Shown: piece by piece, positions 21,596 to 46,239 of the stretch | Numbering within the stretch: the first letter of the stretch is position 1 | Layout: every line of letters starts with the position of its first letter | NCBI RefSeq assembly: GCF_000960975.1 | Contig: NZ_CP010803.1 | Span: forward strand, 1,515,944-1,579,943 | DNA from: Martelella endophytica | GTDB lineage: Bacteria; Pseudomonadota; Alphaproteobacteria; Rhizobiales; Rhizobiaceae | Length of the DNA stretch: 64,000 nt | Reading direction: 5' to 3' | Notes under the pieces: generated by a model | What the model saw: only the letters and a program-made list of their open reading frames with translations | Told to the model about the DNA's origin: nothing | The model's database searches: none | Made by a program: the position numbers and the translations under genes

Positions 21596-21618
21596 ATCTC
21601 CCCCTCAAGGGGGGAGAT
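21596..21618. repeat. Solo end of palindromic intergenic repeat
   Basis: A 23-base sequence identical to 26128-26150 and the exact reverse complement of 26008-26030. It is itself nearly palindromic (CTCCCCCTC and GGGGGGAG arms). Only one end of the element is present here. Confidence 0.85.
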
Positions 21619-21654
21619 TGGCCGTGTGGCAAGGTACGGAGGGCACACCGCTCT

Positions 21655-21815: not shown

Positions 21816-21869
21816 GTCGTACCCGATGGGCCGGCGGCGGCACTCCGCCTGACCGTGCCCCTTCTACCT

Positions 21870-23969: not shown

Positions 23970-24037
23970 GGTTTCCTCCTTCGCCGGCCAGTCTGGCCTT
24001 CGTTCTTCCCCGGCAAAATCCATCCGAAAGTCGGGCT

Positions 24038-24111
24038 TGTCAATCAGAAACAATCAAAAACAGTCAGTAATGTGCCGTATTGCAGTGCGGTATGATTATT
24101 TTTGATTGACA
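24038..24111. promoter_or_regulatory. Candidate RhaR operators in the rhaD-rhaR divergent promoter
   Basis: TGTCAATCAGAAA (24038-24050), AAACAATCAAAAA (24048-24060) and, inverted, TTTTTGATTGACA (24099-24111) are variants of one element. CAATCAAAAA and TTTTTGATTG form a perfect 10-base inverted repeat. TTGACA at 24106-24111 also fits a -35 box for rhaR. Multiple phased half-sites are usual for DeoR-family repressors, and RhaR is encoded next to them. Confidence 0.55.
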
Positions 24112-24151
24112 CTGATGGAAATTCGCTGAACTCTGTCAAAAGGGAGGCCCC

Positions 24152-24952: not shown

Positions 24953-25002
24953 AGCTTTGGAGGAAGCGAAGCCGGACCCTGTTCATCAAATGGAGGAGTA
25001 GG

Positions 25003-25992: not shown

Positions 25993-26007
25993 GGCCTCTT
26001 CTTATCG

Positions 26008-26150
26008 ATCTCCCCCCTTGAGGGGGAGATGCCCCGACAGGGGCAGAGGGGGGTGAACCCTATCCGAGAGCACAGAGACCGCGTCTTTAGGGCTTAGCCC
26101 TTTACCCCTCTCTGTCGCTTTCGCGACATCTCCCCCTCAAGGGGGGAGAT
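26008..26150. repeat. Palindromic intergenic repeat, full copy
   Basis: The outer 23 bases at each end (26008-26030 and 26128-26150) are exact inverted copies, and each end is itself a hairpin of C and G runs. Inside, GACAGGGGCAGAGGGGGGTG on the left is matched on the right by an inverted version (ACCCCTCTCTGTCGC). No open reading frame is present. It resembles the short mosaic palindromes known between genes in Rhizobiales, but I cannot assign a named family. It lies between rhaS and rhaT. Confidence 0.85.
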
Positions 26151-26246
26151 TGGTGGCGGCAGAGTCTGAGCAACCATCCCTCCGAAAGCGATCCGGCCCG
26201 CCCTCAACTACAGCGGGCCGGCACTCCAGAGAAAACATGGCAGGCC

Positions 26247-28741: not shown

Positions 28742-29748
28742 GCATGACTGAGACCCGTCACGTTCCCGACAGGCTGCACAGCCGTGGTCATCGCGCCCTT
28801 CGAAGCTGGGAAAGCCTGCTGCTCGTCGTCGCCGTTGCGATCTTCATCGCCAACAGCTTCGCCTCGCCCTATTTCCTCGATGCCTGGAACCTGTCGGACG
28901 CGACCTTCAACTTCACCGAAAAGGCGCTGATCGCCTTTGCCATGGCGCTGGTCATCATCTCCGGCGAAATCGACCTTTCCGTCGCCTCGATCATCGCGCT
29001 TGCCTCCACCGCGATGGGTTACGCGCTGCAATATGGCGCCGGCACACCGGAACTGGTGGCGATCGGCCTTGGCGTCGGCCTTCTTTGCGGCGCCTTCAAC
29101 GGGCTTTTGATCACCGGCCTCGGCCTCCCCTCCATCGTCGTCACCATCGGTACGATGAGCCTGTTTCGCGGGCTTTCCTATGTGGTTCTCGGGGACAAGG
29201 CGTTTACCGGCTATCCGCCAGGCTTTGCCTATTTCGGCCAGGGCTATGTGTTTTGGGTGATCTCCTTCGAACTGGTGCTGTTCGTGGTCACGGCCATCCT
29301 GTTCGGCATTCTTCTGCATCTCACGAGCTTCGGCCGCATGGTCTATGCCGTCGGCAACAATGCCACCGCCGCGCGCTTTTCCGGCATCCGCGTCGGCCGG
29401 GTGAAATTCCTGCTGTTCCTGATGACCGGCGTGATGTCCGGACTTGCCGCCATCTGCCTGACCTCGCGGCTCGGCTCGACGCGGCCGTCGATCGCCTTCG
29501 GCTGGGAGCTGGAAGTGGTCACCATGGCCGTACTCGGCGGCATCAACATTCTTGGCGGGTCCGGCACCATTCCCGGCGTCGTTCTCGCCGCGATCATCAT
29601 GGGGCTTGTGACTTTCGGCTTCGGGCTGATGAATGTTCCGGGTATCGTGATGTCGATCTTCATCGGCCTGCTGCTGATTGGCGTCATCGCGCTGCCGGTG
29701 CTTTATACCCGCCTCGCACGGCGCATGAAAAAGAGTGAAACCGCATGA
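28738..29748 (+). CDS. rhaQ: Rhamnose ABC transporter permease
   Basis: The second RbsC-family permease, 336 residues. 'FAMALVIISGEIDLSVASI' and 'VLGGINILGGSGTIPGVVLA' mark the family. Its ATG overlaps the rhaP stop (ATGA). It is about the same size as rhaP and forms a heterodimer with it. The stop again overlaps the start of rhaK by four bases, so rhaT, rhaP, rhaQ and rhaK form a translationally coupled chain. Confidence 0.94.
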   Translation: MSMTETRHVPDRLHSRGHRALRSWESLLLVVAVAIFIANSFASPYFLDAWNLSDATFNFTEKALIAFAMALVIISGEIDLSVASIIALASTAMGYALQYGAGTPELVAIGLGVGLLCGAFNGLLITGLGLPSIVVTIGTMSLFRGLSYVVLGDKAFTGYPPGFAYFGQGYVFWVISFELVLFVVTAILFGILLHLTSFGRMVYAVGNNATAARFSGIRVGRVKFLLFLMTGVMSGLAAICLTSRLGSTRPSIAFGWELEVVTMAVLGGINILGGSGTIPGVVLAAIIMGLVTFGFGLMNVPGIVMSIFIGLLLIGVIALPVLYTRLARRMKKSETA

Positions 29749-31109
29749 ATGTCGCCGTCATCGATATCGGAAAGACCAACGCCAAGGTCATTCTCTATGA
29801 TCTTGAAGCGGCAGCGGAAAAGGATGTCCGCTCGACACGCAATGCGGTAACCGGCAGCGATCCCTATCCGCATTTCGAGGTCGACGACCTGTTCGCCTTC
29901 ATTCTGGGCGCCCTTGCGGAGCTGCACAAGGCGTACGGCGTCGATGCCATCTCGGTCACCACCCACGGGGCGACAGCGACGCTTCTGAAAAAGGATGGGA
30001 GCCTGGCGCTTCCGGTGCTCGACTACGAGCATGACGGACCGGATGAGACCCGCGAAGCCTATGAGAGCGTGCGTCCGCCCTTTGCCATCACCGGCTCGCC
30101 GCATCTGGCCGTCGGGCTCAATATCGGCGCCCAGCTTTTCTGGCAGAAGACACGGTTTCCTGAAGCTTTTTCCGACATTGCCACTGTATTGCCCTATCCG
30201 CAGTACTGGGGCTTTCGCCTTACGGGCAGACTTGCGAGCGAAGTGACGAGCTGGGGGTGCCACTCCGATCTCTGGTCGCCGCGCGCGAAGACGTTTTCGC
30301 CGCTGGTGGAGGCCCTCGGGCTTGAGGGGAAGATGGCGCCGCTGGTGCGCGCGGATGAGGAGCTCGGAGCCATCCTGCCGGAGATTGCAGAGAAAACTGG
30401 GCTTTCGTCGGATACACCGGTCTATGCCGGCATTCACGATTCCAACGCCTCGCTGCTGCCGCATCTCTGGTCGCGCAAAAGCCCGTTCGCCGTGGTCTCG
30501 ACTGGCACGTGGGTGGTGGTGATGGCTGTCGGCGGCCATCCGCCGATGCTGGACGAGACCCGCGACACGCTGATCAACGTCAACGCCTTCGGCGATCCGG
30601 TGCCGTCTGCCCGGTTCATGGGCGGTCGCGTCTTCGAGGTCGCGGCGCCGAAGGGCGATGTCGCGGTCACCGATGAGGATCGCACTGCGATGCTGAAACG
30701 CGGCGTCATGCTGATGCCCTCCGTGCTCGGCGATACCGGTCCTTTCCAGGGCATCATTGGCGGCTGGACGATTGACGAGGCGAAGCTCACCCCCGGCATG
30801 CGGCTTCTCGGCGTGTGCTGGTATCTGGCGCTGATGACCGGCGTCTGCCTCGAGCTGACCGGCGCTTCCGGCCCGGTCATCGTCGAGGGACCGTTTTCCG
30901 AGAACCGCGATTTCCTCGCCATGCTCGCCGCCGCCACCGGCCGCCCTGTCGAAAAGAGCCCGGGTAGCGGCACGTCGACAGGCACGGCGGGCCTCGTCAC
31001 CGGCGGCCCGAAGCTGAAAGCCTTCGCGCCGCATCCGGAGCCGCTGCACGATCTCGATGCGCTCAACCGCTACGCCGAAGCCTGGCGCGAGAACCTGCCG
31101 GCCGTGTGA
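29745..31109 (+). CDS. rhaK: L-rhamnulose kinase (FGGY family)
   Basis: A 454-residue FGGY-family carbohydrate kinase with N-terminal phosphate-binding 'VIDIGKTNAKVILYD' and a second-domain adenosine/phosphate segment 'VVSTGTWVVVMAVGGH'. It phosphorylates L-rhamnulose to rhamnulose-1-phosphate, the substrate of RhaD. In R. leguminosarum the kinase is also required for activity of the rhamnose ABC transporter. The ATG overlaps the rhaQ stop. No mutarotase gene lies between rhaQ and rhaK, unlike in R. leguminosarum; that gene is at 19912-20226. rhaK is the last gene of the operon. Confidence 0.93.
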   Translation: MNVAVIDIGKTNAKVILYDLEAAAEKDVRSTRNAVTGSDPYPHFEVDDLFAFILGALAELHKAYGVDAISVTTHGATATLLKKDGSLALPVLDYEHDGPDETREAYESVRPPFAITGSPHLAVGLNIGAQLFWQKTRFPEAFSDIATVLPYPQYWGFRLTGRLASEVTSWGCHSDLWSPRAKTFSPLVEALGLEGKMAPLVRADEELGAILPEIAEKTGLSSDTPVYAGIHDSNASLLPHLWSRKSPFAVVSTGTWVVVMAVGGHPPMLDETRDTLINVNAFGDPVPSARFMGGRVFEVAAPKGDVAVTDEDRTAMLKRGVMLMPSVLGDTGPFQGIIGGWTIDEAKLTPGMRLLGVCWYLALMTGVCLELTGASGPVIVEGPFSENRDFLAMLAAATGRPVEKSPGSGTSTGTAGLVTGGPKLKAFAPHPEPLHDLDALNRYAEAWRENLPAV

Positions 31110-31186: not shown

Positions 31187-32176
31187 TTGAAAACCGCAAC
31201 GGCAAATGATGTGGCCCGGCTTGCCGGCGTTTCGCGCTCCGCGGTGTCGCGCACGTTTTCGGGCAATGGCTTCGTTTCCGCCGAGAAGCGCGAGAAGATC
31301 CTCTCCGCCGCCGCGCAGCTGAACTACCGGCCAAACGCGCTTGCCAGCAGTCTCGCCTCCAGCCAAAGCAATCTCGTCGCGCTGATCCTGAACCGTCGCG
31401 AGGAATACCGCTCGCCCTATTTCTACAACGCGCTGGTCAATGCCGTGCAGGAGGCAGGCTTCTTCCCGCTCGTCGTCGTCATGGATCCGGCCGAGGATGG
31501 CACGCGGACCATTGCCCGCGCCTTCTCCTATCCTGTCCACGGCATCATCGTCATGGCCGACAGCGTCCATCCCGGCTCCACCCGCGGTCTCGTCTCGGCA
31601 ACCCGCCCGATCGTGCTTAACAGCAACTGGACCGGCGACGATGCTGTCGACGCCATGGTTGTCGATCACCGCGGCGGTATCTTTGCCATGGTCGCTGCAC
31701 TCGAGCGCTCGGGCCACAAGACCGTCGCCTTCATCGATGGCCGGTCGACCTCCACCGAATCGACCACGCGGCGCTCGAATTTCATCAATGCCGTCGCCGC
31801 AAGCGGCCTGACGCTGATCGCCGAAGGCAACGGCGACTACAGCTATGACACCGCCGCCCGGGAGGCGATCCGCATCATTGAGAGCGGCGCTGCGCCAGAT
31901 GCCTTCTTCTGCGCCAACGACCAGATGGCGTTCGGAGTCATGGATGCGCTGCGGCTGACGCTTGGCAGGCGGGTGCCGGAGGATGTCAGCGTGATCGGTT
32001 ATGATGGCAGTCCGGAGGCGCGCTGGGCCTCCTATGGGCTTGCGACGATCCGGCAGCGCAACGAGGAAATGGTCTCGAAAGTCGTCTCGCTGCTGACCGA
32101 GCCGCTCGACCATCCGCGGCAGTTTCTGATCACCACCGAGTTTATCCCCCGCGCCTCGATCCGCGGCGGTGGCTGA
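31187..32176 (+). CDS. LacI-family transcriptional regulator
   Basis: A 329-residue LacI/GalR-type regulator. The N-terminal helix-turn-helix and hinge helix are seen in 'ATANDVARLAGVSRSAVSRT' and 'LNYRPNALASSLAS'; the periplasmic-binding-protein-like effector domain follows, with 'PDAFFCANDQMAFGVMDALR' near its end. The only reasonable start is a TTG at 31187, preceded by GGGGAAG; no in-frame ATG lies near the DNA-binding domain. It sits directly upstream of the family 5 transporter operon, whose promoter region holds CG-centred palindromes typical of LacI operators. It is therefore the likely local regulator; the effector is unknown. Confidence 0.92.
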   Translation: MKTATANDVARLAGVSRSAVSRTFSGNGFVSAEKREKILSAAAQLNYRPNALASSLASSQSNLVALILNRREEYRSPYFYNALVNAVQEAGFFPLVVVMDPAEDGTRTIARAFSYPVHGIIVMADSVHPGSTRGLVSATRPIVLNSNWTGDDAVDAMVVDHRGGIFAMVAALERSGHKTVAFIDGRSTSTESTTRRSNFINAVAASGLTLIAEGNGDYSYDTAAREAIRIIESGAAPDAFFCANDQMAFGVMDALRLTLGRRVPEDVSVIGYDGSPEARWASYGLATIRQRNEEMVSKVVSLLTEPLDHPRQFLITTEFIPRASIRGGG

Positions 32177-32177: not shown

Positions 32178-32387
32178 TACTGCACGCGATTTCATAAAAG
32201 CTTCAATGCCCTGCACAAAAACTGTGATCCGCATTGCCTAGCCTGATGGCGAAGCGCGGCTGGGTCTACCACACGGTGTCCACCTGAATGAAGTTGTGCA
32301 CGCGCGTGCATACGGGAACGACCTTCAACAAACCTTCATAAACCGTTCATCGTTCTTATAAGAACCAGTCCTATGAACGCGTGTGCA
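32178..32387. promoter_or_regulatory. Promoter region of the family 5 transporter operon with CG-centred palindromes
   Basis: TGCACGCGCGTGCA (32297-32310) is a perfect 14-base palindrome with a central CG. TGAACGCGTGTGCA (32374-32387) matches it at 12 of 14 positions, and TGCACGCG at 32178-32185 is a half-site. Between them lies another perfect palindrome, GTTCTTATAAGAAC (32352-32365). The first two are 77 bases apart, centre to centre. They are good candidates for the LacI-family regulator encoded just upstream; the second overlaps where the transcript of the binding-protein gene would start. Confidence 0.5.
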
Positions 32388-34480: not shown

Positions 34481-35488
34481 ATGCTGGAGTTTCTGGCCCG
34501 TCGCGCCGTGCTGATGGTGTTCACGGTGCTTGCGATCACCGTGGTTTCCTTTGCCGTCATCACCCTTCCGCCCGGCGACTATGTCGACAAGCTTGCCCTC
34601 GATGCGCGCATGACCGGCGATGTCATGCCGGCGGAGCAGCAGGCCCAGCTGCGCCACCGCTTCGGCTTGGACAAGAGCCTGCCCGAACAATATTACGACT
34701 GGGTCTCCAACATCGTCCGATACGGCGATTTCGGCCGGTCATTCACCTATGAGCGTCCCGTCACCGAGCTGATCTGGGAGCGGCTCGGGCTGACCTCGCT
34801 GTTGTCGGTGCTGACGCTGATGTTTATCTGGGTGATCGCCATTCCCATCGGCATCTACTCTGCCGTCCGCAAATATTCGCTCGGCGACTATCTCTTCACC
34901 TTCATCGGCTTCATCGGGCTCGCCATCCCCAATTTCCTGCTGGCGCTGGTGCTGATGTACGTCTCGTTCAAATATATGGATCAGAGCGTTGGCGGATTGT
35001 TTTCGCCGCAATATCTCGATGCGCCCTGGTCGTTTGCCCGCATCGGCGACCTGCTGTCGCATCTGTGGATCCCGATGGTCGTGCTCGGCACGGCGGGTAC
35101 AGCCAGCGTCATCCGCACCATCCGCGCCAATTTGCTGGATGAGCTGCACCGGCCCTATGTGTTGACAGCACGGGCAAAGGGGCTTTCCGAGCACCGGCTG
35201 ATCGTCAAGTACCCGGTGCGCTACTCGCTCAATCCCTTCGTTTCCGGGCTCAACGAAATCTTCGTCACCATCGTTTCCGGCGAAACCATCGTCGCGGTCG
35301 TTCTCGGTCTGCAGACCACCGGCCCGCTTCTGCTCGATGCGCTGCGAAATCAGGACATGTATCTGGCGGCGACGCTGATCATGTTCCTGAGCTTCCTTGC
35401 CGTCGTGGGTACCCTCTTTTCCGACATGCTGCTGATGATCCTCGATCCCCGTATCCGCCGGCAGGCCCGTGAAGGAGAGCTGTTGTGA
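34481..35488 (+). CDS. ABC transporter permease (DppB/OppB type)
   Basis: A 335-residue inner-membrane permease with six predicted segments. The N-terminal 'MLEFLARRAVLMVFTVLAIT' helix, the large periplasmic loop with 'HRFGLDKSLPEQYYDWVSN', and the EAA-type loop 'PYVLTARAKGLSEHRLIVKY' are typical of DppB. The start at 34481 is the first ATG that gives the standard first helix. It pairs with the overlapping DppC-type gene. Confidence 0.92.
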   Translation: MLEFLARRAVLMVFTVLAITVVSFAVITLPPGDYVDKLALDARMTGDVMPAEQQAQLRHRFGLDKSLPEQYYDWVSNIVRYGDFGRSFTYERPVTELIWERLGLTSLLSVLTLMFIWVIAIPIGIYSAVRKYSLGDYLFTFIGFIGLAIPNFLLALVLMYVSFKYMDQSVGGLFSPQYLDAPWSFARIGDLLSHLWIPMVVLGTAGTASVIRTIRANLLDELHRPYVLTARAKGLSEHRLIVKYPVRYSLNPFVSGLNEIFVTIVSGETIVAVVLGLQTTGPLLLDALRNQDMYLAATLIMFLSFLAVVGTLFSDMLLMILDPRIRRQAREGELL

Positions 35489-36585
35489 AGGCATCCTCCG
35501 ATCAGGTCAGCTATCAGGCACTCATCTGGCGCCGGTTCCGCCGCCACAGGCTCGGCGTCCTCGGTGCCGTGGTGACCGGCTTCATCTATTTTGTGGCGCT
35601 TTTCGTGGAGTTCCTGGCGCCGTTCAATCCGCAGGATTTCTCGCCCCGCGCGCTCTATTCGCCGCCGCAGATGGTCCATCTCATCCGCACCGATGATACC
35701 GGCGCCATGCATTTCGGTCCCTATGCGATCGGCTTCAAATCGACGGTCGACTACAATACCGGACATCGCATCTTCAAACCGGATCCGGAGCGGGTCATTC
35801 CGCTCGGCTTCTTCGTGAAGGGCGATGCCTACAAGATGTGGGGTTTCCTGCCCTGGGACCGGCATTTCTTCGGCCCGACCGATCCTGAAGACAAGGTCTA
35901 TTTCTTCGGCGCCGATCGGCTTGGCCGCGATGTGTTCAGCAGAACGATCTATGCGACGCGGGTTTCGATGACGATCGGGCTTATCGGCGTGGCGCTGAGC
36001 CTCGTGCTCGGTCTCATCATCGGCGGCGCCTCCGGCTATTTCGGCGGCTGGATCGATGTCGCCATCCAGCGCGTCATCGAATTCCTGCAGTCGCTTCCGT
36101 CGATCCCGCTGTGGATCGGGCTGGCGGCGGCCATTCCGCCGACCATGCCGCCGATCCAGACCTACTTCCTGATCACCGTCATCCTCTCGGTGCTTGGCTG
36201 GACAGGGCTGGCCCGGGTCGTGCGCGGCCGGTTCATGGCGCTGAAGAAGGAGGAGTTCGTGGTGGCCGCGCGTCTCGACGGCTGTCGCCCGCCGCGCATC
36301 ATCCTGCGCCACATGGCGCCGAATTTCCTCAGCCACATCATCGCCGTCGTCACGCTTGCCATTCCCGGCATGATCATTGCCGAGACGTCGCTCAGCTTCC
36401 TCGGCATCGGCCTCAGGCAGCCGGTGGTGAGCTGGGGCGTTCTGTTGCAGGAGGCGCAGAATTTTCGCTCGATCGCTGCTGCCCCCTGGCTGTTCGCGCC
36501 CGGTGGCGCGGTCGTGATTGCGGTGCTCGCGCTCAATTTCCTCGGCGACGGCCTTCGCGACGCGGGAGATCCCCATGCAAACTGA
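35485..36585 (+). CDS. ABC transporter permease (DppC/OppC type)
   Basis: A 366-residue inner-membrane permease. It starts with a GTG at 35485 that overlaps the stop of the DppB-type gene, so the two are translationally coupled. The DppC signature 'GADRLGRDVFSRTIYATRVS' and the coupling loop 'EEFVVAARLDGCRPPRIILR' are clear. A long insertion of about 90 residues (roughly 50-140) between the first helix and the core lies in the periplasm and is seen in OppC-like members. With the DppB-type partner it forms the channel. Confidence 0.92.
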   Translation: MKASSDQVSYQALIWRRFRRHRLGVLGAVVTGFIYFVALFVEFLAPFNPQDFSPRALYSPPQMVHLIRTDDTGAMHFGPYAIGFKSTVDYNTGHRIFKPDPERVIPLGFFVKGDAYKMWGFLPWDRHFFGPTDPEDKVYFFGADRLGRDVFSRTIYATRVSMTIGLIGVALSLVLGLIIGGASGYFGGWIDVAIQRVIEFLQSLPSIPLWIGLAAAIPPTMPPIQTYFLITVILSVLGWTGLARVVRGRFMALKKEEFVVAARLDGCRPPRIILRHMAPNFLSHIIAVVTLAIPGMIIAETSLSFLGIGLRQPVVSWGVLLQEAQNFRSIAAAPWLFAPGGAVVIAVLALNFLGDGLRDAGDPHAN

Positions 36586-38656
36586 GACCCTGCTCGAAAT
36601 CGACGGCCTTTCCGTTTCTTTCAAGGATGATGACAATTCGCTGGCTGCCCTCAAGGATGTCTCTTTCGATATTCCGACCGGCAAGACCGTCTGCCTGGTG
36701 GGTGAATCCGGCTGCGGCAAGTCACTGACGGCGCGCAGCCTGTTACGCATCCTTGATCCGAACGCCGACATCGTGGGGGGCCGGATGCGCTTTCGCGAGC
36801 GTGATGGTGCCGTCACAGATCTTGCGGCGGAAACGCCGAAATCGGCGCCCCTGCGTCAGGTCCGCGGCAACGAGATCACCATGATCTTCCAGGAACCGAT
36901 GACCGCGCTTTCCGTGTTTCACACCATTGGCGACCAGATCATCGAGGCGATCCGTGTCCATGAGCGCATGTCGAAGAAGGCAGCGCGGGCACGGGCGCTG
37001 GAGGCGCTCGAGGCGGTCGGCATGCCCGATGCCGCGGCGCGGCTTGATGCTTATACGTTCGAGCTTTCGGGCGGGCAGCGCCAGCGCGCGATGATCGCCA
37101 TGGCGCTGGTCACCAATCCCCGTCTGCTGATCGCCGACGAACCGACGACCGCGCTCGATGTCACCACCCAGGCGGTGATCCTCGAATTGCTGCAGGACCT
37201 CAAGGCGCGCTTCGGCATGTCGTTCCTGTTCATCACCCACGATCTCGGCGTGGTTGCCGAAATGGCCGACGAGGTGGTGGTGATGTATCTCGGCGAGGTG
37301 GTGGAACGTGGTCCCGTGGAGCGCATCTTCAATGCTCCGCGCCACCCCTATACGCGGGCGCTGCTTGCCGCCGCACCGCATTATTCGACGGGCAACAACA
37401 CGCGGCTCCCTGTCATTCCGGGCACCGTGCCGAGCCTTTCCAAACGGCCGGAGGGCTGCGCCTTCGTGACGCGCTGCGCCTTTGCCGAAGCCGGCCGATG
37501 CGATGTCGAGCGGCCGCCGATGGTGCCGGGTGAGACCGAGGCACGCTGCTTCTTTGCCGGCGATGAGCGGCTGGCGGGGCCGGTTCCGAACGAAGAACTT
37601 GCGTCTCCGGCGGTGACTGACGCGGTGACGAAAGAGCGGCGCCCGATCATTCTGGCGGCCGATCGCGTGTCGCGCCATTTTGAAAAGAAGCGCGGCCTGT
37701 TTCGTGGCGGTGAGTGCGTGACCCGCGCGGTGAACGATGTTTCACTGGAGCTGGCGGAAGGCGAGACGCTCGGCCTCGTCGGCGAGTCCGGTTGCGGCAA
37801 GTCGACGCTCGGCAGCACGCTGGCGGCGCTGCTCGATCCGACCGGCGGTTCGGTTCGGCTCGGCATCAATGGCGAGAGCCGCGTGATCTCCGGGCTGTCA
37901 GAGCCGGAGCGCCGTGCGGTCTGGCGTGACCTCCGCGTGGTGTTCCAGGACCCCTACAGTTCCCTCAATCCGCGCATGAGCGTGTTCGATATCGTTGCCG
38001 AGCCGCTCAGGGCCGGCGCCGGACGGACGATGAAGCCGGCGGCGCTCAAGGCGCGGGTCGACGACGTTCTGGCCCGTGTCGGGCTCGATCCGTCATTGTC
38101 CGGTCGCTATCCACATGCCTTTTCGGGTGGTCAGCGGCAGCGCATCGGCATTGCCCGTGCGCTCGCCCCATCGCCGCGCATCATCATTGCCGATGAGCCG
38201 GCGTCCGCGCTCGACGTTTCGGTGCAGGCGCAGATCCTCAATCTGTTCCGTGACCTGCAGAAGACACTGGGGCTGACCTACCTCTTCATCTCGCACGATC
38301 TCAACGTTGTTTCCAACATCGCCGGGCGGGTTGCGGTCATGTATGCGGGGCGCATCGTCGAAATGGCAGACACGGCCGACATCTACCACCGTCCCCGCCA
38401 TCCCTATTCGGCGGCACTTCTGAATGCGGTGTTGACCCCCGAATACCATCCGACGAAGCCTGTGCGGGAGCGGCTTTCGGGCGCACCGCCCAATCCGGCC
38501 AATCTGCCCGTCGGCTGCGCCTTCTCGCCACGTTGTCCCTTCGCGACCGATCTTTGCCGCAGCGCCGCACCGCCGCTGGAGCATGATGGTAATGGGCGGT
38601 TGACAGCCTGTCATCGTCGCGATGATCTGCAACTGACGGGGCTGGGAGAGGCGTGA
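36575..38656 (+). CDS. Fused ABC transporter ATPase (DppD-DppF type, two ATP-binding domains)
   Basis: A 693-residue protein in which the two ATPases of a peptide-type importer are joined in one chain. Domain 1 has Walker A 'GESGCGKS', signature '[15 protein letters not shown]' and Walker B '[12 protein letters not shown]'; domain 2 repeats these as 'GESGCGKST', '[15 protein letters not shown]' and '[12 protein letters not shown]'. After each comes the C-terminal oligopeptide-transporter extension with cysteines ('[20 protein letters not shown]' and '[16 protein letters not shown]'), which in this family can hold an iron-sulphur cluster. Both halves look intact. It starts within the end of the permease gene (overlap of 11 bases). 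Confidence 0.93.
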
Positions 38657-40020
38657 TGCAGATTATCGACACGGGACTGAGCCTTGCCGGAACGCGTGAG
38701 ACGACGTTCAGGGTGGAGCGCGATGACCAGGCGCGAAGTCCCTATCTTTACGTCGCGGTCGATGTGCCGTCCGGGCTTTCGTCGTTGTCGGTGACGCTGG
38801 CTTATGAAAAGGGCGAAGACTGCATCATCGATCTCGGCCTCCTCGATCCGCGCGCGAGCGCCTATCCGACCCGCGAAGGCTTTCGCGGCTGGAGCGGCGG
38901 CGCCCGCAACGCCGTCTTCGTCGGCGAGAAGACGGCGACGCCCGGCTATGTTCCGGGGGCCATCATGGCAGGGCGCTGGCTGGTCATGCTCGGCCTCTAT
39001 CGCTTGCCGGAGGCGGGGGCGGAGATTTCGCTGACTGTGGGTGACACGCCAATCGGGCCCGCGGCGTCAGCGGTTCCGGAAGCCACCCGCTGGACGCCAA
39101 AAGGCCCCGGCTGGTATCGCGGCGACACCCACAGCCATACCTTCCACTCCGATGCGAAGGGCGCGCCCGAGACCCTGCATAGGATGGCGCGCGAACGTGG
39201 ACTCGATTTCCTGTTCGTCACCGATCACAACACGCTGACGGGATGGACCGCCTATTTCCGCAACGTCACCGGTTCTGACCTCGTCTTTCTTCCGGGCGTC
39301 GAAATCACCACGGCCGACGGCCACGCCAATATTCTAGGGCTTGAGACCTGGGTCGATTTCCGGCTTGAACGGGATGAGGACATCGCGGTGCTGGAGGCGT
39401 CCGCCAGGAGCGCCGGCGGCATCCTCTCGGTCAATCACCACAAGCCGCCGATCCCCTGGCGGCACGCATGGCCGGAGGTGAAATGCATGGAGGCGTGGCA
39501 TGAATGTTGGGATCGCGACAACGCGCTGCTGCTCTCGCGCTATGATGCGCTTTTGAAATCCGGCAGGCGCATCACCGGCATCGGTGGCAGCGATTACCAC
39601 CAGCCGGCGGCGCTGACGCATGAAGGCGCCTGGCTGCTCGGCAATCCGACGACCGTGGTTCATGCCGAAACGCTCGACAGGACCGGTGTCGTGGAAGCAA
39701 TCCGCCGGGGCCGGGTCTTCATCACCGAAAGTCCGGACGGCCCGCATCTCGAGCTTGAAGCAGACGGCCAGCCGATGGGGGGCGTGGTTGCCGCCTCAAA
39801 AGGCGTGGTTCTGAACGTGCTGACCGAAGGTGCAAAGGGTGACGGCCTGCATCTCGTCAGCGATCGCGGTCTCCTCGCGACCCTGCCTGTCGGCTCCGGG
39901 CGGTGGCAGGCCGAGATGCGCCTTCCTTCCGGCCTTCTTTATGTGCGCGCCGAAATCCGCCGTGGCAAGGCGGTGCGGGCGCTTTCCAATCCGATCTATT
40001 TCGACAGGCAAATGCGATGA
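38656..40020 (+). CDS. CehA/McbA family metallohydrolase (PHP domain), copy 1
   Basis: A 454-residue protein with an N-terminal beta-rich region (about 1-145) followed by a PHP-type metallohydrolase. Metal-binding motifs are 'RGDTHSHTFHSDAKG' (Asp157, His159, His161, His164), 'VTDHNT' (Asp190, His191) and 'GGSDYH' (Asp313, His315). PHP enzymes mostly hydrolyse phosphoesters; the CehA name comes from a carbamate hydrolase. No signal peptide is seen, so it is cytoplasmic and acts after uptake. The ATG shares its A with the stop of the ATPase gene, which couples it to the importer. The true substrate is not known. Confidence 0.88.
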   Translation: MQIIDTGLSLAGTRETTFRVERDDQARSPYLYVAVDVPSGLSSLSVTLAYEKGEDCIIDLGLLDPRASAYPTREGFRGWSGGARNAVFVGEKTATPGYVPGAIMAGRWLVMLGLYRLPEAGAEISLTVGDTPIGPAASAVPEATRWTPKGPGWYRGDTHSHTFHSDAKGAPETLHRMARERGLDFLFVTDHNTLTGWTAYFRNVTGSDLVFLPGVEITTADGHANILGLETWVDFRLERDEDIAVLEASARSAGGILSVNHHKPPIPWRHAWPEVKCMEAWHECWDRDNALLLSRYDALLKSGRRITGIGGSDYHQPAALTHEGAWLLGNPTTVVHAETLDRTGVVEAIRRGRVFITESPDGPHLELEADGQPMGGVVAASKGVVLNVLTEGAKGDGLHLVSDRGLLATLPVGSGRWQAEMRLPSGLLYVRAEIRRGKAVRALSNPIYFDRQMR

Positions 40021-41375
40021 CGCTTCTCTTCGAAGGCCGGCTGACGCTCGACCAGATGTCCTCCCACATTCCCTTTCGGTTCGAACTGCCGGAAGGCGTC
40101 GGTACGCTCCGTATCGATTTCAGTCATACGCCGCACCATCCGGGCGTCGGCGACATTCCGCATCAGCTCAGCATTTCGGTTTATGGCCCGAACGGCGCGC
40201 GCGGCACGCGGCACAACAATGCTGACCAGAGCCCGGTCATCTCGACGCGCCATGCCTCGCCCGGCTACCTCCCCGGCCCGATCGAGCCGGGAGAGTGGTG
40301 CGTCGAAATCGATTGCCACCGCATCCTGCCGCCGGGCGGGGTCAGTTACCGGCTTGCGATCGACTGGCAGGATCAGGAAACCGAGCCGCCAACTGCCGAG
40401 CCCCTGCCTTCCGCAGCACCCCGCCGGCGCGGCAAGGGCTGGTATCGTGGCGATCTGCACGGCCATACGCTGCATTCCGATGGCCGGATGAGCATCGCCG
40501 AATATCTCGCCTACGCGCAGGAACGCGGCCTCGATTTCGTGGCGCTCACCGACCACAACACCGTCTCCGCCATTTCCGAGCTCGAACGGCTGGCGGGCGA
40601 GGGGATCACCATCCTGCCGGGAACGGAACTCACCACCTATCACGGCCACGCATTGGTGCTTGGCAGCCGGCAATGGCAGGAATGGCGGGTGAAGGACGGC
40701 TCCACCATGAGTGCGATCGCTGATGCCGCATCCGAGCAAGGCCAGCTCTTCGTCATCGCCCATCCCCAGCATGAGGGGCATCCGTTCTGCACCGGCTGCC
40801 ACTGGGCCTGGGCTGACATGATGCCCGGTCCGGCGCGCCATGTGGAGGTCTGGAACGGTCCGCGTGACAACGGCGATCACAACGACCGCTCGCTGGCACT
40901 GTTCTATCATTTCCTCAACCAGGGCTACCGTATGATCGCGACCAGCGGCACGGACACCCATCGCCGCGCCGCGCCCGAACACCGTATCCCGGTGCTGATG
41001 GTCGAGGCCGAGGATAACACCGTTTCCGCACTTCTGTCGGCGATCAGGCGCGGCCGCTCATACATCACCGGCGGCCCGCTGCTCGAGGTGGGCGCCACCG
41101 ACGAGAGCGGTCGACGGATCGAGATGGGCGAAACGGCAGAACCGGGGCAGCTTTCGCTTTCCTGCCGCTGGACCGCCGACGATGGCACGCTCACCGCACG
41201 TCTGATCCGCCGTGGCGATGTGATGGAGACGGCAACTGCAACCGGCGAGCTGACGGTCGAAACCGAAGCGCGATCGAACGACTGGTTCGTCATTGAACTC
41301 CGCGACGCCCTTGCCCGCCTCCACGCCGTCACCAACCCGATCTTCCTCGGCGGCGACGGCGCCGTGTGGTATTGA
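40017..41375 (+). CDS. CehA/McbA family metallohydrolase (PHP domain), copy 2
   Basis: A 452-residue paralogue of the preceding protein with the same two-part layout. Motifs are 'RGDLHGHTLHSDGR' (Asp146, His148, His150), 'LTDHNT', 'IAHPQHEGHPFC' and 'TSGTDTHRR', so all metal ligands appear present. The ATG overlaps the stop of copy 1 (ATGA). The pair differ in detail (for example 'HPFCTGCHW' in this copy only), which suggests two related steps or a heteromer rather than simple redundancy. It is the last gene of the operon and converges on the siderophore permease gene. Confidence 0.88.
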   Translation: MTLLFEGRLTLDQMSSHIPFRFELPEGVGTLRIDFSHTPHHPGVGDIPHQLSISVYGPNGARGTRHNNADQSPVISTRHASPGYLPGPIEPGEWCVEIDCHRILPPGGVSYRLAIDWQDQETEPPTAEPLPSAAPRRRGKGWYRGDLHGHTLHSDGRMSIAEYLAYAQERGLDFVALTDHNTVSAISELERLAGEGITILPGTELTTYHGHALVLGSRQWQEWRVKDGSTMSAIADAASEQGQLFVIAHPQHEGHPFCTGCHWAWADMMPGPARHVEVWNGPRDNGDHNDRSLALFYHFLNQGYRMIATSGTDTHRRAAPEHRIPVLMVEAEDNTVSALLSAIRRGRSYITGGPLLEVGATDESGRRIEMGETAEPGQLSLSCRWTADDGTLTARLIRRGDVMETATATGELTVETEARSNDWFVIELRDALARLHAVTNPIFLGGDGAVWY

Positions 41376-41457: not shown

Positions 41458-43428
41458 CTACGCCTTGCGGCCGCGCATCAGCAGTACGAGGAATGGGGCG
41501 CCGAGGAGTGAGGCGGCGAGGCCGGCGGGGATTTCATAGGGGAAGATCGCGGTGCGGCCAGCCCAGTCGGCAAGCGTCATCAGACCGCCGCCGAGAAGGG
41601 CCGCGGCGAGGAGGGTTTCGGCCGGACGCCGGAAGCCCAGAAGCCGGGCGGCATGCGGTGCCATCAGTCCCACGAAGGTCAGGGGCCCGACGCAAAGCGT
41701 TGCCGCTGCGCTGAGAATGCCGGCAAGCAGCAGCAACAGGCTGCGCGCCCGCGCCACGGGGACGCCGCGGGCGGAGGCGACGGCCTCGCCGAGCGGCAGC
41801 ACGGCAAGCCAGCGCCGTGTCATCAGGGCGGCCGGCAGCAGCACGGCAAGCGTGAGCGCTGCAAGGCCGGCGAGCGGAAAGCCGGCATTGTAGGTCGAAC
41901 CGCTCAGCCAACGCATCAGGAACAGGGCACGCGGATCGCCGCTTGCGGCGAGGAAGCCGATCACCGCATCGGCGAGCGCGGTGAGCGCGATGCCGCCGAG
42001 CAAAACCCGCTCCGGCGCCAGGCCCGATCGGACTGCGAGGAGGAAAATCACTGCGATCACCGCCATCGCCCCGAGCGCCGCCACCGCGAATTGCCCCACG
42101 AGCGATAGTGACGCGAAGATCAGCACACCCGCCGTCACCCCAAGCGTGGCGCCGGCGCCGATGCCGAGAATTTCAGGGCTCGCCATCTCGTTGCCGGTCA
42201 GCCGCTGCAGGATGACACCGGCAAGCGAAAGCATGGCGCCGGCGAGGAAGGCGACCATCACCCGTGGCGCGCGCAGTCCGCCGACCGAGGCCAGCAGGTC
42301 GGGGCCAAGCAGGGCGAAGTCTCCCGTTCCGGTGCGTCCGACGAAAATGGCGAGACAGGCCGCAGCAAGGGCGAGGGCGGCGGCGATGGCCAGCCGCAGG
42401 CGGATGTGGCCATGATTGGGGGCACCGGCCATGGTGGTTTCGGGCCGGCGGTGACGCGTCTTCAGCCGGGGCAGCAGCGCGATCAGGAGCGGAGCGCCGA
42501 AAACCGCGGTCACGGCACCCGTCGGCACCAGCCCGATGTCGCCGGTGCTCAGCATCATGACGGCATTGTCGGTGAGAAACAGCAGGGCCGCGCCGATCAC
42601 CGACGACCAGATGAGGATCTGCGAGGGCCTGCGCGCGCCGGTCAGTCGAGCAAGCGTCGGGGCCACGAGACCGACAAAGCCGATCACCCCGACAGCACTT
42701 GTGACGATCGCTGCAAGGCCGACGGCCACCGCAATGGCGACCACGCGCAGCAGGTGGATATTGATGCCGAGCGCGCGCGCGCCTTCATCGCCAAGTTCGA
42801 TGAGGGCGAGCGGTCGGATCAGCAGAGCTGACAGGCCGCCAAGGACAGCGAGTTTTGCCGCAAGCCAGGCCGGCACCGACCAGCTTTGCTGGGCAAGCGA
42901 CCCCGCGCCCCAGATGAACAGGCCGGCCAGATAGCGATCGTTGAGAAGCACGAGCACCGCCGAGAGCGCGCCGCACCAGAGCCCGACAATCAGGCCAGCA
43001 ATGACCAGCGAGAAGGGCGAGAAGTTCTGCCGGGCGCCGATGGCGAGCACCAGTCCGGCGGCTGCCGCGGAACCGGCAAGGGTCACGAGGTCGCGGCCGA
43101 AACCGAGCAGCGCCGGCGCAAACAGCATGGCGAGCGCCAGCGCCAGCCCGCCGCCGGCGGAAACGCCGAGCGTCGTCGGCGAGGCCAGCGGATTGCGCAG
43201 CACCTGCTGGAACACGGCTCCGGACAGCGCCAACGCCGCGCCGCAGAGAAGCGCGGTGGCCATGCGGGGCAGGGTTGCATAGAAGAGCAGCATGCGGCCG
43301 ATATCATAGGCTTCTCCGGCATGGCCAGTGGCGGATGCCGTGATCACAAAGGCGGCGGCAAGGCTGCCGAGACCACCAAGGACAAGGGCGAGCCCGATCG
43401 GCCCGCGCGTTTCTGCCGCGATCCTCAT
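41458..43428 (-). CDS. fhuB: Iron-siderophore ABC transporter permease, fused FecCD domains (FhuB type)
   Basis: A 656-residue inner-membrane protein made of two FecCD-type permease halves in tandem, about 20 membrane helices in all, as in FhuB. Each half has its signature: 'LRNPLASPTTLGVSAGG' in the first and 'GNEMASPEILGIGAGA' in the second. It moves a ferric hydroxamate-type siderophore into the cytoplasm. The start at 43428 overlaps the stop of the binding-protein gene (ATGA); an earlier open stretch of 42 codons lies within that gene. The fused form points to the ferrichrome/ferrioxamine branch rather than catecholate systems. Confidence 0.93.
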   Translation of the reverse strand: MRIAAETRGPIGLALVLGGLGSLAAAFVITASATGHAGEAYDIGRMLLFYATLPRMATALLCGAALALSGAVFQQVLRNPLASPTTLGVSAGGGLALALAMLFAPALLGFGRDLVTLAGSAAAAGLVLAIGARQNFSPFSLVIAGLIVGLWCGALSAVLVLLNDRYLAGLFIWGAGSLAQQSWSVPAWLAAKLAVLGGLSALLIRPLALIELGDEGARALGINIHLLRVVAIAVAVGLAAIVTSAVGVIGFVGLVAPTLARLTGARRPSQILIWSSVIGAALLFLTDNAVMMLSTGDIGLVPTGAVTAVFGAPLLIALLPRLKTRHRRPETTMAGAPNHGHIRLRLAIAAALALAAACLAIFVGRTGTGDFALLGPDLLASVGGLRAPRVMVAFLAGAMLSLAGVILQRLTGNEMASPEILGIGAGATLGVTAGVLIFASLSLVGQFAVAALGAMAVIAVIFLLAVRSGLAPERVLLGGIALTALADAVIGFLAASGDPRALFLMRWLSGSTYNAGFPLAGLAALTLAVLLPAALMTRRWLAVLPLGEAVASARGVPVARARSLLLLLAGILSAAATLCVGPLTFVGLMAPHAARLLGFRRPAETLLAAALLGGGLMTLADWAGRTAIFPYEIPAGLAASLLGAPFLVLLMRGRKA

Positions 43429-44318
43429 GCGCGTTCTGCCATCGCCGTGGTGAAAAGCCTGGCAAAGCGCGTCGCCTCGTTGACCATGCCGAAGAGAAGC
43501 ACCGGCGGGATCACCACGAGACGCTCTCTTGCGGTGAAGGGCAGGGCCCGCCACAGCGGACTGCGTTCGAGGCTTGGCAGGATATCGGCGGCCAGCGGTT
43601 CGATGACGACAAGCGCGGTCTTTGGATCGGCGATGCGTGCGAGATCGGCGATGGCGATGGTTTCGTAGCCCCAGACATTGGCGGCACCCGGCCAGGCATT
43701 GGCCACACCCAGCCGCTCAAGCACGCTGTCGTAGAGCCCGGGTGCCGAATAGATGCGGACGTGACGTTCGTCGAGGAAGCTGATGATCGCGACCGGCGGC
43801 GTTTCGCTGCCTCCGAGCGTCGCCGCGCAATCTTCGAACATGCGATCGGCCTGCTGCAGGAATGCGGTTGCGGCCTCCTCGCGGCCGATCGCCTGGCCCA
43901 GCCTTCGCGTTGCGGCGATCGCCCGCGTCAGGACGGGGCCGTCTTCGGCGGTATAGACGTCGAGGCTGAGGACGGGCGCATAATGTTCGAGGCGGGGAGT
44001 GAGATGGGCGAGGAACGGCGAGGTCAGGATCAGATCGGGCTGGAGTGCTGCCAGAACCTCGAAGCTGATTTCCCACGAGGAGCCGAGGTCGGCAACGCCT
44101 TCGGGCATTTGCGGCTTTCCGACCCACTTGGCCCAGCCGTCGAGGGAGGCGACGGCGATCGGCGTGATGCCGAGCGCCAGGAGGGTGGATGCGCCGGCAT
44201 AGTCGAGGCAGGCGATCCTTTTCGGCGCCGCGGCCCGTGCTGGCACCGCCCCCAGGAGAGGCGCCGTCGCCAAGCCGGCGAGAAAACGGCGTCGGCCTAT
44301 TTCGGGTTCAGCGGACAT
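43425..44318 (-). CDS. fhuD: Iron-siderophore substrate-binding protein (FhuD type)
   Basis: A 297-residue periplasmic binding protein with a twin-arginine-like signal (GRRRFLAGLATAPLLGAVPA), as is common for FhuD. The class III binding-protein fold is suggested by 'RIACLDYAGASTLLALGITP' and 'SFEVLAALQPDLILTSPF'. The start at 44318 overlaps the end of the ATPase gene by 11 bases. It passes the ferric siderophore from the outer-membrane receptor to FhuB. The exact ligand cannot be told. Confidence 0.9.
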   Translation of the reverse strand: MSAEPEIGRRRFLAGLATAPLLGAVPARAAAPKRIACLDYAGASTLLALGITPIAVASLDGWAKWVGKPQMPEGVADLGSSWEISFEVLAALQPDLILTSPFLAHLTPRLEHYAPVLSLDVYTAEDGPVLTRAIAATRRLGQAIGREEAATAFLQQADRMFEDCAATLGGSETPPVAIISFLDERHVRIYSAPGLYDSVLERLGVANAWPGAANVWGYETIAIADLARIADPKTALVVIEPLAADILPSLERSPLWRALPFTARERLVVIPPVLLFGMVNEATRFARLFTTAMAERA

Positions 44319-45120
44319 AGGCAAGCGGCATGGCCGAGTCAGGATGCGGGATGACGCCCATTTCGACGCCATAGATCGCGCGCAGCGTCTCGGCATTGAG
44401 GAAGGTGTCCGGCCGGCCGTCGGCGACAAGCTTTCCACCCTTCAAAGCATAAATGTGATCGCAGAACCGTGCCGCCATGTTGATGTCGTGCAGCACGACG
44501 ATCACCGAAAGTCCGTTGTCGTGCGACAGTCGGCGGATCAGGCTCAGCACCTCGATCTGATGGGCGATGTCGAGCGCCGAGGTCGGTTCGTCCAGAAGCA
44601 GGCAGCGGCTGTCCTGCGCGATCAGCATGGCGATCCAGGCGCGCTGGCGCTCGCCTCCCGACAGCGTATCCACCATGCGCTCCGCCATCGCTTCAAGTCC
44701 CGCCATCGCCAGCGCGGTTTCGACCTTTTCGCGGTCATTGTCGCTGAAGCGGCCGACTGCCCCGTGCCAGGGATAGCGGCCGCAGGCGACCAGTTCGCGC
44801 ACGCTCATGCCGGTGGCGGAGCTGGTATCCTGGGCGAGATAGGCAACCCTGCGGGCGAAGTCGCGGGCACCGATCGCCTGCAGCGGCTCGCCGTCGAAGA
44901 CGATGCTGCCCCCGCTCGGCTGCTGCTGGCGGGCAAGGAGCTTCAGCAGTGTCGATTTACCCGAGCCATTGTGGCCGACGAGCGCAGATACGACGCCCTG
45001 CGGAAAATCGATCGAAATGCCGGAAAGGAGCGGCCGCGCCTCGACCGAAAAGCAAAGGTCCCGTGTCGTAAAACCGGTCGCCTGCAGTGTCTGCGGCGCT
45101 GATATGGAGGCAAAACCCAT
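44308..45120 (-). CDS. fhuC: Iron-siderophore ABC transporter ATP-binding protein (FhuC type)
   Basis: A 270-residue ATPase with Walker A 'GHNGSGKST', signature 'LSGGERQRAWIAMLIAQ', Walker B 'CLLLDEPTSALD' and H-loop 'IVVLHDINMAARFCDH', all matching the FepC/FhuC group. It is the first gene of the fhuC-fhuD-fhuB operon. The start at 45120 (MGFASISAPQ) gives the usual length; 22 more codons are open upstream but overlap the iron-box promoter. It is divergent from the AraC regulator, and a TGA-N9-TCA box lies 51 bases upstream. Confidence 0.92.
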   Translation of the reverse strand: MGFASISAPQTLQATGFTTRDLCFSVEARPLLSGISIDFPQGVVSALVGHNGSGKSTLLKLLARQQQPSGGSIVFDGEPLQAIGARDFARRVAYLAQDTSSATGMSVRELVACGRYPWHGAVGRFSDNDREKVETALAMAGLEAMAERMVDTLSGGERQRAWIAMLIAQDSRCLLLDEPTSALDIAHQIEVLSLIRRLSHDNGLSVIVVLHDINMAARFCDHIYALKGGKLVADGRPDTFLNAETLRAIYGVEMGVIPHPDSAMPLAYVR

Positions 45121-45170
45121 TGGACGATCCCGAATTCCCGGCAAGCGGCTTGAAGCCTGCTTATTAAAGA

Positions 45171-45185
45171 TGATAATTGCTTTCA
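45171..45185. promoter_or_regulatory. Candidate RirA iron-responsive box (fhuC / araC)
   Basis: TGATAATTGCTTTCA fits the rhizobial iron-responsive operator pattern TGA-N9-TCA exactly. It lies between divergent fhuC and the AraC regulator gene and could repress both under high iron. Confidence 0.6.
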
Positions 45186-45247
45186 AGTTTTTTCAGGCTT
45201 TGCAGTTCCCGAATGTGGGTGGTCCTCCGGTGCAGCATTTTCCGCGG

Positions 45248-46120
45248 ATGGAAATCGAGATCGAAGGTTTTTGCGTGACCGGCAGCCGGCATCACCGCTT
45301 CGGCGGGGATCTGGTCGCCGATCTGTGGGACGTCGATTGCAGCGAGGAGGCCGGCGGCTATTATGTGAGCCGCGATCCGCGCCTTTTCGTTCTGCTCGAG
45401 ACGCGTGCCCGCCCGGAGGCTGTGTTCACCATGTCGGAGATCGGCGGACGAACGCTGCCGGACTGCGGCGTGCGGGCGATGCACTTCATACCCGCCGGCA
45501 TGGAAATGCGCACAAGGCTGACGGCCATGCAGGGGCTGCGTCACCTCGACCTCCACTTCGACGCCGGCACGCTTGCCCGCAGGCTCGGAAACCGCTTCGA
45601 TCCGGCGGTGCTGAACGAGCCCCGCTTCATGCTGAATGATGACCGGCTCAATCAGATCGCCGCGCTTCTGGCCGCCGAACTTTCCGCCGACAATCCGCTT
45701 CACGATCTTTACGGCGACGGCCTGGTCAATGCGCTGCTGGTCGGGCTTCTGGGGTTGCGTCCCGATGAGGCGCGGCCGCGCAGCAAGCTTGCGGACTGGC
45801 AGGTCCGCCAGGTCACCGGCTATATCGCCGACCATGCGGCGAAACGCATTCCGCTGGAGGAACTCGCCGCGCTTCTCGGCCTTTCCGCTTCCTATTTCAG
45901 CCATGCATTCAAGGCCAGCACCGGGCTTTCGCCGCAGCAATGGCAGATGAACCACAGGATCGACCGGATCAAGGACGAGCTGAAGAATCCGGCGATTCCG
46001 ATCACGGCCATTGCCGCGCAGGCGGGCTTTGCCGATACGGCACATTTTTCGCGCAGCTTCCGCCGGATCACCGGCATGACGCCGTCCGGCTGGCGCACGG
46101 TCAACGGTGGCAGCGACTGA
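45248..46120 (+). CDS. AraC-family transcriptional regulator
   Basis: A 290-residue regulator with an N-terminal sensing region and a C-terminal AraC DNA-binding domain (about residues 190-285): 'IPLEELAALLGLSASYFSHA' is the first helix-turn-helix and 'AQAGFADTAHFSRSFRRITG' the second with its family signature. AraC regulators beside TonB-receptor and Fhu genes usually activate uptake when the ferric siderophore is present. Start choice: an ATG at 45170 would overlap the candidate iron box, so the promoter probably lies there; I take the ATG at 45248 (MEIEIEGF). Neither start has a strong ribosome site. Confidence 0.88.
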   Translation: MEIEIEGFCVTGSRHHRFGGDLVADLWDVDCSEEAGGYYVSRDPRLFVLLETRARPEAVFTMSEIGGRTLPDCGVRAMHFIPAGMEMRTRLTAMQGLRHLDLHFDAGTLARRLGNRFDPAVLNEPRFMLNDDRLNQIAALLAAELSADNPLHDLYGDGLVNALLVGLLGLRPDEARPRSKLADWQVRQVTGYIADHAAKRIPLEELAALLGLSASYFSHAFKASTGLSPQQWQMNHRIDRIKDELKNPAIPITAIAAQAGFADTAHFSRSFRRITGMTPSGWRTVNGGSD

Positions 46121-46188
46121 ACGCGGCCACATTTTTGACCAAATTCATTCAACTGCGAGCGGATTTGTGCAAGCGCCGTGCATATACT

Positions 46189-46203
46189 TGAGTTAATTAC
46201 TCA
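46189..46203. promoter_or_regulatory. Candidate RirA iron-responsive box (TonB receptor)
   Basis: TGAGTTAATTACTCA fits TGA-N9-TCA and has five-base inverted arms (TGAGT/ACTCA). It ends 36 bases before the receptor's ATG, a good place for repression under high iron. Confidence 0.65.
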
Positions 46204-46239
46204 GATTAAATTCCGCTCACTCAGTTACCGGCTCCGATC

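Follow-up and report, generated by a model that had tools for sequence, protein, structure and literature searches.

A seven-gene operon of Martelella endophytica (genome a single contig of 4.81 Mb) was analysed within a 64 kb stretch of DNA, hereafter the window. In order, and all on the plus strand, it encodes a LacI-family regulator, a family 5 binding protein (SBP5), two permeases (B and C), a fused double ATPase and two CehA/McbA-type metallohydrolases of the PHP class (PHP1 and PHP2). The operon is real, conserved and of a predicted import-and-hydrolyse type, and it is uncharacterised as far as literature searches show. We propose that it is an inducible system by which an anionic glyco-compound would be imported and then hydrolysed in the cytoplasm by PHP1 and PHP2, with phosphoester chemistry the most likely; taken as a whole, we regard the chances of this proposal as evenly balanced. 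The substrate is most likely a phosphodiester, an acyl ester or a lactone also being possible.

The operon and its conservation

All seven genes named in a preliminary description of this DNA are present, and their families were confirmed with Pfam and NCBIfam (Table 1). That description placed the operon at 34481..41375, a span that begins at permease B and leaves the genes for LacI and SBP5 outside. It also reported stop/start overlaps at almost every junction; overlaps do exist, but at four of the six junctions (B/C, 4 nt; C/ATPase, 11 nt; ATPase/PHP1, 1–4 nt; PHP1/PHP2, 4 nt), the other two being gaps of 67 bp (SBP5–permease B) and 263 bp (LacI–SBP5). The importer has the composition of the family 5 (OppA-type) class, with an SBP_bac_5 domain, two BPD_transp_1 permeases with OppB/OppC-type N-terminal domains and oligo_HPY ATPases, and its ATPase is genuinely fused, one chain carrying both ABC_tran domains. 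As claimed earlier, no peptidase is encoded in the operon.

The gene order, for which a wider search had been proposed, recurs in other genera. By tblastn of the window proteins on fetched loci, all seven genes were found in the same order in Pelagibacterium sp. 26DY04 (L110; 55–78% identity) and in a Rhodobacteraceae metagenome-assembled genome (MAG; L010; 42–72%), and six, in the same order without the LacI gene, in an Alphaproteobacteria MAG (L011; 49–74%). Permease B is 70–78% and permease C 72–76% identical across the three loci; the LacI ortholog is 63% identical in L110 and 42% in L010. Compared by eye, the flanks of L010 and L011 are unrelated to each other and to those of the window, and those of L110 are likewise unrelated. 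Independently of the choice of loci, contigs shared among the matches listed for SBP5 (120), PHP1 (118 of 120 entered) and PHP2 (120), recognised by the identical length of the longest contig, were counted, the window genome included. Among these matches SBP5 and PHP2 share at least 12 contigs, SBP5 and PHP1 at least 8, PHP1 and PHP2 at least 8 and all three at least 5, against means of about 0.4 in a control in which the lengths were shifted; when contigs shorter than 10 kb are set aside, 12 stand against 0.07 for SBP5/PHP2 and 8 against 0.02 for SBP5/PHP1. Since the order is kept in other genera and contig sharing lies far above the shifted control, the operon is more than a set of chance neighbours. 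No description of this gene order was found in the open-licence literature of PubMed Central (PMC).

PHP2 is present in 2 of 297 genomes of the order sample (E 1e-60) and in 1 of 385 of the class sample (E 1e-80), and PHP1 in 5 of 297 genomes of the family sample and 10 of 297 of the order sample, the window genome being included in all four counts; among the Devosiaceae, PHP2 occurs in 4 of 136 genomes. Several loci hold part of the operon. A Devosiaceae genome (L113) has the importer and PHP2, no PHP1, and then a gene passing the HAD-IIA family cut-off; its binding protein and permease C each match in two pieces. Two Caldilineaceae loci combine a 28% identical binding protein, an importer and one PHP1-like gene. 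In Devosia pacifica (L111), what precedes PHP2 is a C-terminal remnant of PHP1, and the stretch fetched contains no importer of this kind; the remnant and PHP2 read as one annotated protein of 555 amino acids (aa) (P0148; L111:4791-6542). The Pelagibacterium copy continues with a GH38 alpha-mannosidase-family gene and then a third PHP gene (L110:14371-18702), the GH38-family gene being 58% identical to one adjoining a PHP1-type operon in Martelella (L091). In L011 a 1512 aa protein, by eye 5'-nucleotidase/phosphatase-like with calcium-binding repeats, adjoins PHP2 (L011:13131-17669, minus strand).

Table 1. Genes of the operon and putative operators, in window coordinates
Feature	Position	Strand	Remarks
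LacI-family regulator	31187..32176	+	PF00356, PF13377; TTG start uncertain
Putative LacI operator 1, TGCACGCGCGTGCA	32297..32310	.	Perfect palindrome in the LacI–SBP5 gap; only exact copy in 64 kb
Putative LacI operator 2, TGAACGCGTGTGCA	32374..32387	.	LacI–SBP5 gap, 77 bp downstream of operator 1
SBP5, family 5 periplasmic binding protein, 657 aa	32440..34413	+	PF00496; signal peptide by eye
Permease B	34481..35488	+	PF00528, PF19300
Permease C	35485..36585	+	PF00528, PF12911; GTG start
Fused double ATPase, 693 aa	36575..38656	+	Two ABC_tran and two oligo_HPY stretches
PHP1, CehA/McbA-type metallohydrolase	38656..40020	+	NF038032, 232.6 bits; alternative GTG start 38653
PHP2, CehA/McbA-type metallohydrolase	40017..41375	+	NF038032, 239.1 bits

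The hydrolases and the company they keep

Both hydrolases belong to the CehA/McbA family, scoring well above the curated NF038032 cut-off of 80. The model of PHP1 (predicted local distance difference test score 88.2) has the PHP fold of the PHP phosphoesterase superfamily and an N-terminal PPC-like beta domain. The metal-binding motifs, called intact in the preliminary description, are indeed kept at the expected positions in the family alignments, namely H159, H161, D166, H191, E216, H223, H261, D313 and H315 in PHP1 (19 rows; invariant, H159 nearly so) and H148, H150, D155, H180, E204, H211, H249, D313 and H315 in PHP2 (23 rows; all invariant). We take the PHP metal-ligand pattern to be HxH, D, H, E, H, H, D, H. 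For the PHP enzyme Sb-PDE, nine metal-ligand residues are given in an excerpt of PMC5460133. No signal peptide was seen by eye in PHP1 or PHP2, as had been stated before. PHP2-type proteins share invariant H249, P250, G254, P256, C258, G260, C261 and W263 (PHP2 residues 249–263); the cysteines are missing from the PHP1 alignment, and the segment may form an extra metal or specificity site in PHP2-type proteins.

A recent tandem duplication as the origin of the pair was ruled out by the tree and by a mutual identity of 34%. In a tree of 42 chosen sequences, the alphaproteobacterial PHP1s that adjoin a family 5 importer (window, L110, L010 and L011) form one clade (support 99/96), sister to 14 PHP1s chosen from loci with CUT1 importers (99/92). 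The PHP2s of the same four loci group with that of L093, a locus with a spermidine-type importer and a glycerophosphodiester phosphodiesterase (GDPD) gene (100/99); the fifth PHP2 linked to a family 5 importer, from L113, joins the PHP2 clade together with L112, L114 and L094 (97/89). L094 and L095 are on long branches. From this placement it follows that the operon unites two long-separated paralogs, which at other loci go with different importers.

The neighbours of PHP1-type genes were surveyed at 80 loci returned in named genomes, an importer permease being sought on the same strand within 9 kb. It was found at 38 loci (34 CUT1, 4 family 5). Other neighbours were DUF5054, a weak GH38N match (30 of 80), GH38 (3 of 80) and GDPD (3 of 80). 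At L029 a CUT1 importer and PHP1 share a single plus-strand run with genes for a TIM-barrel isomerase and a Gfo/Idh dehydrogenase as well as a spermidine-type importer and GDPD, and an inositol monophosphatase (IMPase)-family gene lies beside this run on the opposite strand; L023 and L035 resemble it, having a PHP1–CUT1 run into a spermidine-type importer and GDPD, and an IMPase gene beside, L035 without the isomerase and dehydrogenase. Eleven PHP2-clade loci were examined (window, L010, L011, L110, L111, L112, L113, L114, L093, L094 and L095), of which five have a family 5 importer, five a spermidine-type importer and one neither; GDPD lies near four (L093, L094, L095 and L112), all within the spermidine-type five. 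Judged from these neighbourhoods, the PHP1 lineage is mostly partnered with CUT1 sugar importers and the PHP2 lineage with spermidine-type importers, often with GDPD nearby. That PHP genes stay in synteny with importers of three types is good support for the earlier claim that the hydrolases would act on whatever is imported.

Two further clusters were seen. On an Enterococcus faecium plasmid (L095:5108-11167), GDPD, ABC importer and PHP genes form a cluster of similar general design. The window genome itself carries a third CehA/McbA PHP gene (L116:8962-17216, minus strand) after a CUT1 importer, two MR/MLE dehydratases, an SDR gene and an FAA-hydrolase gene, a run that by its gene families is a predicted sugar-acid pathway; this PHP and the third one of the Pelagibacterium operon are sister sequences (100/100).

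The binding protein and its sister importers

Among structures in the PDB, SBP5 matched best Thermotoga maritima OppA (5ipw, E 1e-87), followed by SPH1118 of Sphingomonas sp. A1 (E 3e-84), its nearest relative studied for ligands. According to an excerpt of PMC9314435, Arg57, Arg438 and Trp594 of SPH1118 are particularly important for substrate binding and hardly conserved in 5ipw, and the sulfonate of 2-(N-morpholino)ethanesulfonic acid sits at Arg57. These residues, by which we recognised an acid-sugar pocket, correspond to R88, R468 and W637 of the window SBP5. The triad is R,R,W in L110, R,K,W in L010 and L011, and S,G,gap in 5ipw; a 38% identical Rhizobium leguminosarum protein has R,S,S and the two Caldilineaceae proteins have M,N,W and M,R,W. 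Because Arg88, Arg468 and Trp637 are kept, the ligand of SBP5 is read as probably anionic and probably pyranose-containing, phosphate and carboxylate being indistinguishable from the pocket.

SBP5 is matched at E 1e-180 or better in 17 of 136 Devosiaceae genomes. Besides the Pelagibacterium ortholog there are 17 sister loci in this family, whose binding proteins are 51–55% identical; the Pelagibacterium genome itself has one of these loci as a second copy. At each of the eight sister loci examined, genes for a LacI regulator and a HAD-family protein diverge from the importer (58–90% and 57–80% identical, respectively, to the L168 copies), and no PHP homolog was found at any of the eight. IMPase and GDPD genes lie within the stretch at two of them, at one together with a Na/Pi cotransporter gene. 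At L173:15086-18605 (Devosiaceae), Na/Pi cotransporter, IMPase and GDPD genes directly follow the sister importer.

Proposed nature of the imported compound

In the proposed mechanism, SBP5, whose fold and family are observed, would capture an anionic glyco-compound in the periplasm, the preference for an anion being suggested by Arg88, Arg468 and Trp637. By family, permeases B and C with the fused double ATPase would carry it into the cytoplasm. There PHP1 and PHP2 would cut it, most likely by phosphoester hydrolysis; for example, one might open a phosphodiester and the other remove the phosphate or a second ester. The preliminary description had already suggested a phosphodiester- or ester-linked substrate. 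The phosphodiester is supported indirectly by the GDPD genes near PHP2-type and PHP1-type loci, by the HAD, IMPase and GDPD genes near the sister importers and by the anion-binding pocket of SBP5, while the carbamate esterases among the relatives of the hydrolases keep the ester option.

Several observations weigh against this proposal. A search for GDPD homologs across all 64 kb of the window and in L010, L011, L110, L111, L113 and L114 found none, so that GDPD accompanies 0 of the 5 PHP2 loci with a family 5 importer, and the count of 4 in 11 is not a random sample because L093–L095 were hand-picked from 71 plasmid records. Beside PHP1-type genes, glycosidase-type genes are commoner than GDPD (30 DUF5054 and 3 GH38 versus 3 GDPD at the 80 loci), and at 42 of these loci no importer permease was found with the references used, which were alphaproteobacterial only; 28 of the 42 are from Actinomycetota, several are short contigs and one (L042) has an importer ATPase. 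In the binding protein, none of seven other SPH1118 contacts (Asn53, Glu216, Asn324, Arg466, Asp483, Arg496 and Glu505) is identical, and Arg294 aligns to R324 pairwise and not in the multiple alignment. The HAD protein of the Devosiaceae loci has the motif DSGDT, in which the second Asp is missing. Phosphatases usually carry a DxD motif at this place, so this protein may not be a phosphatase and its role is uncertain; its first 200 residues have no Pfam match.

A possible, though less probable, alternative is uptake of a natural carbamate, or of a sugar or sugar acid in esterified or lactonised form, with the PHP enzymes serving as carboxyl-ester hydrolases or lactonases. The named CehA/McbA members are carbamate esterases, and CehA acts also on a natural carbamate, the plant alkaloid physostigmine (PMC8292978, in excerpt), which makes ester hydrolysis a possible activity here. 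This and the place of the third PHP gene of the genome in a same-strand sugar-acid run keep the alternative alive; many PHP1-type genes, moreover, sit with Gfo/Idh and TIM-barrel isomerase genes.

An oligosaccharide of pectin (rhamnogalacturonan) is an unlikely substrate in our estimate. Here the operon would be the importer of the neighbouring rhamnose/pectin region, with the PHP proteins removing side groups such as acetyl esters. Upstream, at 20247-31109, is a rhamnose-type locus (an isomerase with a sub-threshold RhaA match, an aldolase/dehydrogenase, a regulator, an ABC importer and an FGGY kinase), and the window also holds two GH88-family genes (4354-5817 and 58397-59578), a heparinase II/III gene (758-2578) and, by sight, galactose genes and a beta-galactosidase (9156-15436); because of these genes it looks like a pectin/rhamnogalacturonan utilisation region. 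SPH1118, whose Arg57, Arg438 and Trp594 SBP5 keeps, binds pectin; in the excerpted reports its preference is given as rhamnogalacturonan in 2020 (PMC7055323) and polygalacturonate in 2022 (PMC9314435). A 39% identical binding protein of R. leguminosarum, too, lies near fucosidase and arabinofuranosidase genes. Rhamnogalacturonan was therefore favoured at first as the obvious substrate, from the rhamnose locus and SPH1118, and was then weakened by two comparisons. With the references used, no homolog of the rhamnose locus or of GH88 was found in the stretches fetched around L010, L011 and L110. Within the genus, rhaK is present in 9 of 12 congeners; the best SBP5 relative among the 12 is 40% identical, with none above 40%, and in the seven congeners examined rhaK is followed neither by a PHP gene nor by an orthologous importer gene, although one (L146) has a different family 5 importer 5–10 kb on. 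PHP1 was not found at E 1e-60 in the four congeners sampled. The operon thus stands beside the rhamnose locus only in the window genome within its genus sample. As congeners lack PHP1, a close SBP5 and the operon after rhaK, it was probably acquired by this lineage, and adjacency to the rhamnose genes is therefore a weak clue to the substrate.

An ordinary oligopeptide importer with incidental hydrolases is very improbable: family 5 importers are named for peptides, the top PDB match is an OppA, two M20 peptidases lie near the distant relative operon L053, a subtilase-like gene was seen by eye upstream of the L011 importer, and the excerpt of PMC7055323 reports higher sph1114-1118 transcription in yeast extract with the authors' suggestion of possible oligopeptide binding as well, but the operon has no peptidase, its PHP linkage is conserved, SBP5 has the pocket residues missing from 5ipw and tryptone did not shift the melting point of SPH1118 (PMC9314435, in excerpt). 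Binding of ordinary peptides, named in the preliminary description as the result that would overturn its proposal, has thus become less likely, with the suggestion of 2020 and the M20 genes near L053 still in its favour.

Regulation and downstream genes

LacI would repress the operon through the two operators, 77 bp apart, before the SBP5 gene. Both are close to TGNACGCGYGTGCA, as are TGGACGCGCGTGCA and TGCAAGCGCGTGCA, which lie 78 bp apart in the equivalent LacI–SBP5 gap of L110, and TGCACGCGTGTGCA upstream of SBP5 in L010. The two window sites are the only matches in 64 kb at two mismatches or fewer, a number that is unremarkable because shuffles give 1.2 on average; what speaks for a function of the putative operators is their position, together with the similar sites in L110 and L010.

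Directly downstream of the operon (41458-48420) are siderophore-type uptake genes, named from their translations: a fused FecCD-like permease, FecB- and FecE-like genes, an AraC regulator and a TonB receptor.

Relation to known systems and implications

The closest functional parallel would be agrocinopine catabolism, in which AccF and AccG hold the positions that the PHP enzymes would take here. The Agrobacterium acc operon comprises AccR, the importer AccABCDE, the phosphodiesterase AccF and the phosphatase AccG (PMC4526662, in excerpt). Both systems have a repressor, a binding protein with an ABC importer and then hydrolases; in the window the hydrolases are PHP proteins and the ATPase is one fused chain. 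AccF is presumably a GDPD-type phosphodiesterase, an enzyme with no homolog in the window, and no entry named AccA occurs by name among the best 60 of the 91 PDB matches of SBP5.

Other systems share single components. SPH1118, of the SPH1114-1116 importer, belongs to the same class of binding protein as SBP5 (about 33% identity) with the pocket triad kept; the two differ at seven other ligand contacts, and in the excerpted accounts no hydrolase is named for the Sphingomonas sp. A1 cluster. CehA and McbA, as excerpted, hydrolyse carbamates, and the window operon has no such context. Sb-PDE of Sphingobium sp. TCM1 is a PHP-domain phosphodiesterase of 441 aa with diester activity and a signal peptide (PMC5460133, in excerpt); the likeness, drawn from this description and not from its sequence, lies in the PHP class and similar length, and the signal peptide sets it apart. 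LacI–CUT1 importer–PHP1 operons with divergent DUF5054 (in Devosia, Ensifer, Rhizobium, Agrobacterium and Martelella) likewise have PHP1 relatives (41–50% identical) after the importer genes, but their importer is of an unrelated class and PHP2 is missing at those loci.

More speculatively, and with a good deal of doubt, the operon might be one of several assemblies of a so far undescribed guild of bacteria. Members of such a guild would take up glycosylated glycerol- or inositol-phosphodiesters, using ABC importers of at least three unrelated classes, and break them down intracellularly with PHP hydrolases. The substrates could be deacylated glycolipid headgroups or headgroups of the glycosylphosphatidylinositol or glycosyl inositol phosphorylceramide type. 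The PHP hydrolases would replace, or work together with, GDPD, inositol monophosphatase, GH38-type mannosidases and Gfo/Idh dehydrogenases, and the phosphodiesterase step and the phosphatase step would fall to PHP1 and PHP2.

CehA/McbA-type PHP proteins are numerous and mostly unassigned, and the one review found on them ties the named members to carbamates (pesticides and physostigmine). Their conserved pairing with importers suggests that the family has a natural role in catabolism. If the substrate is a phosphodiester, the operon would offer a second route, arisen independently of the agrocinopine type, to the use of phosphate-linked sugars as food.

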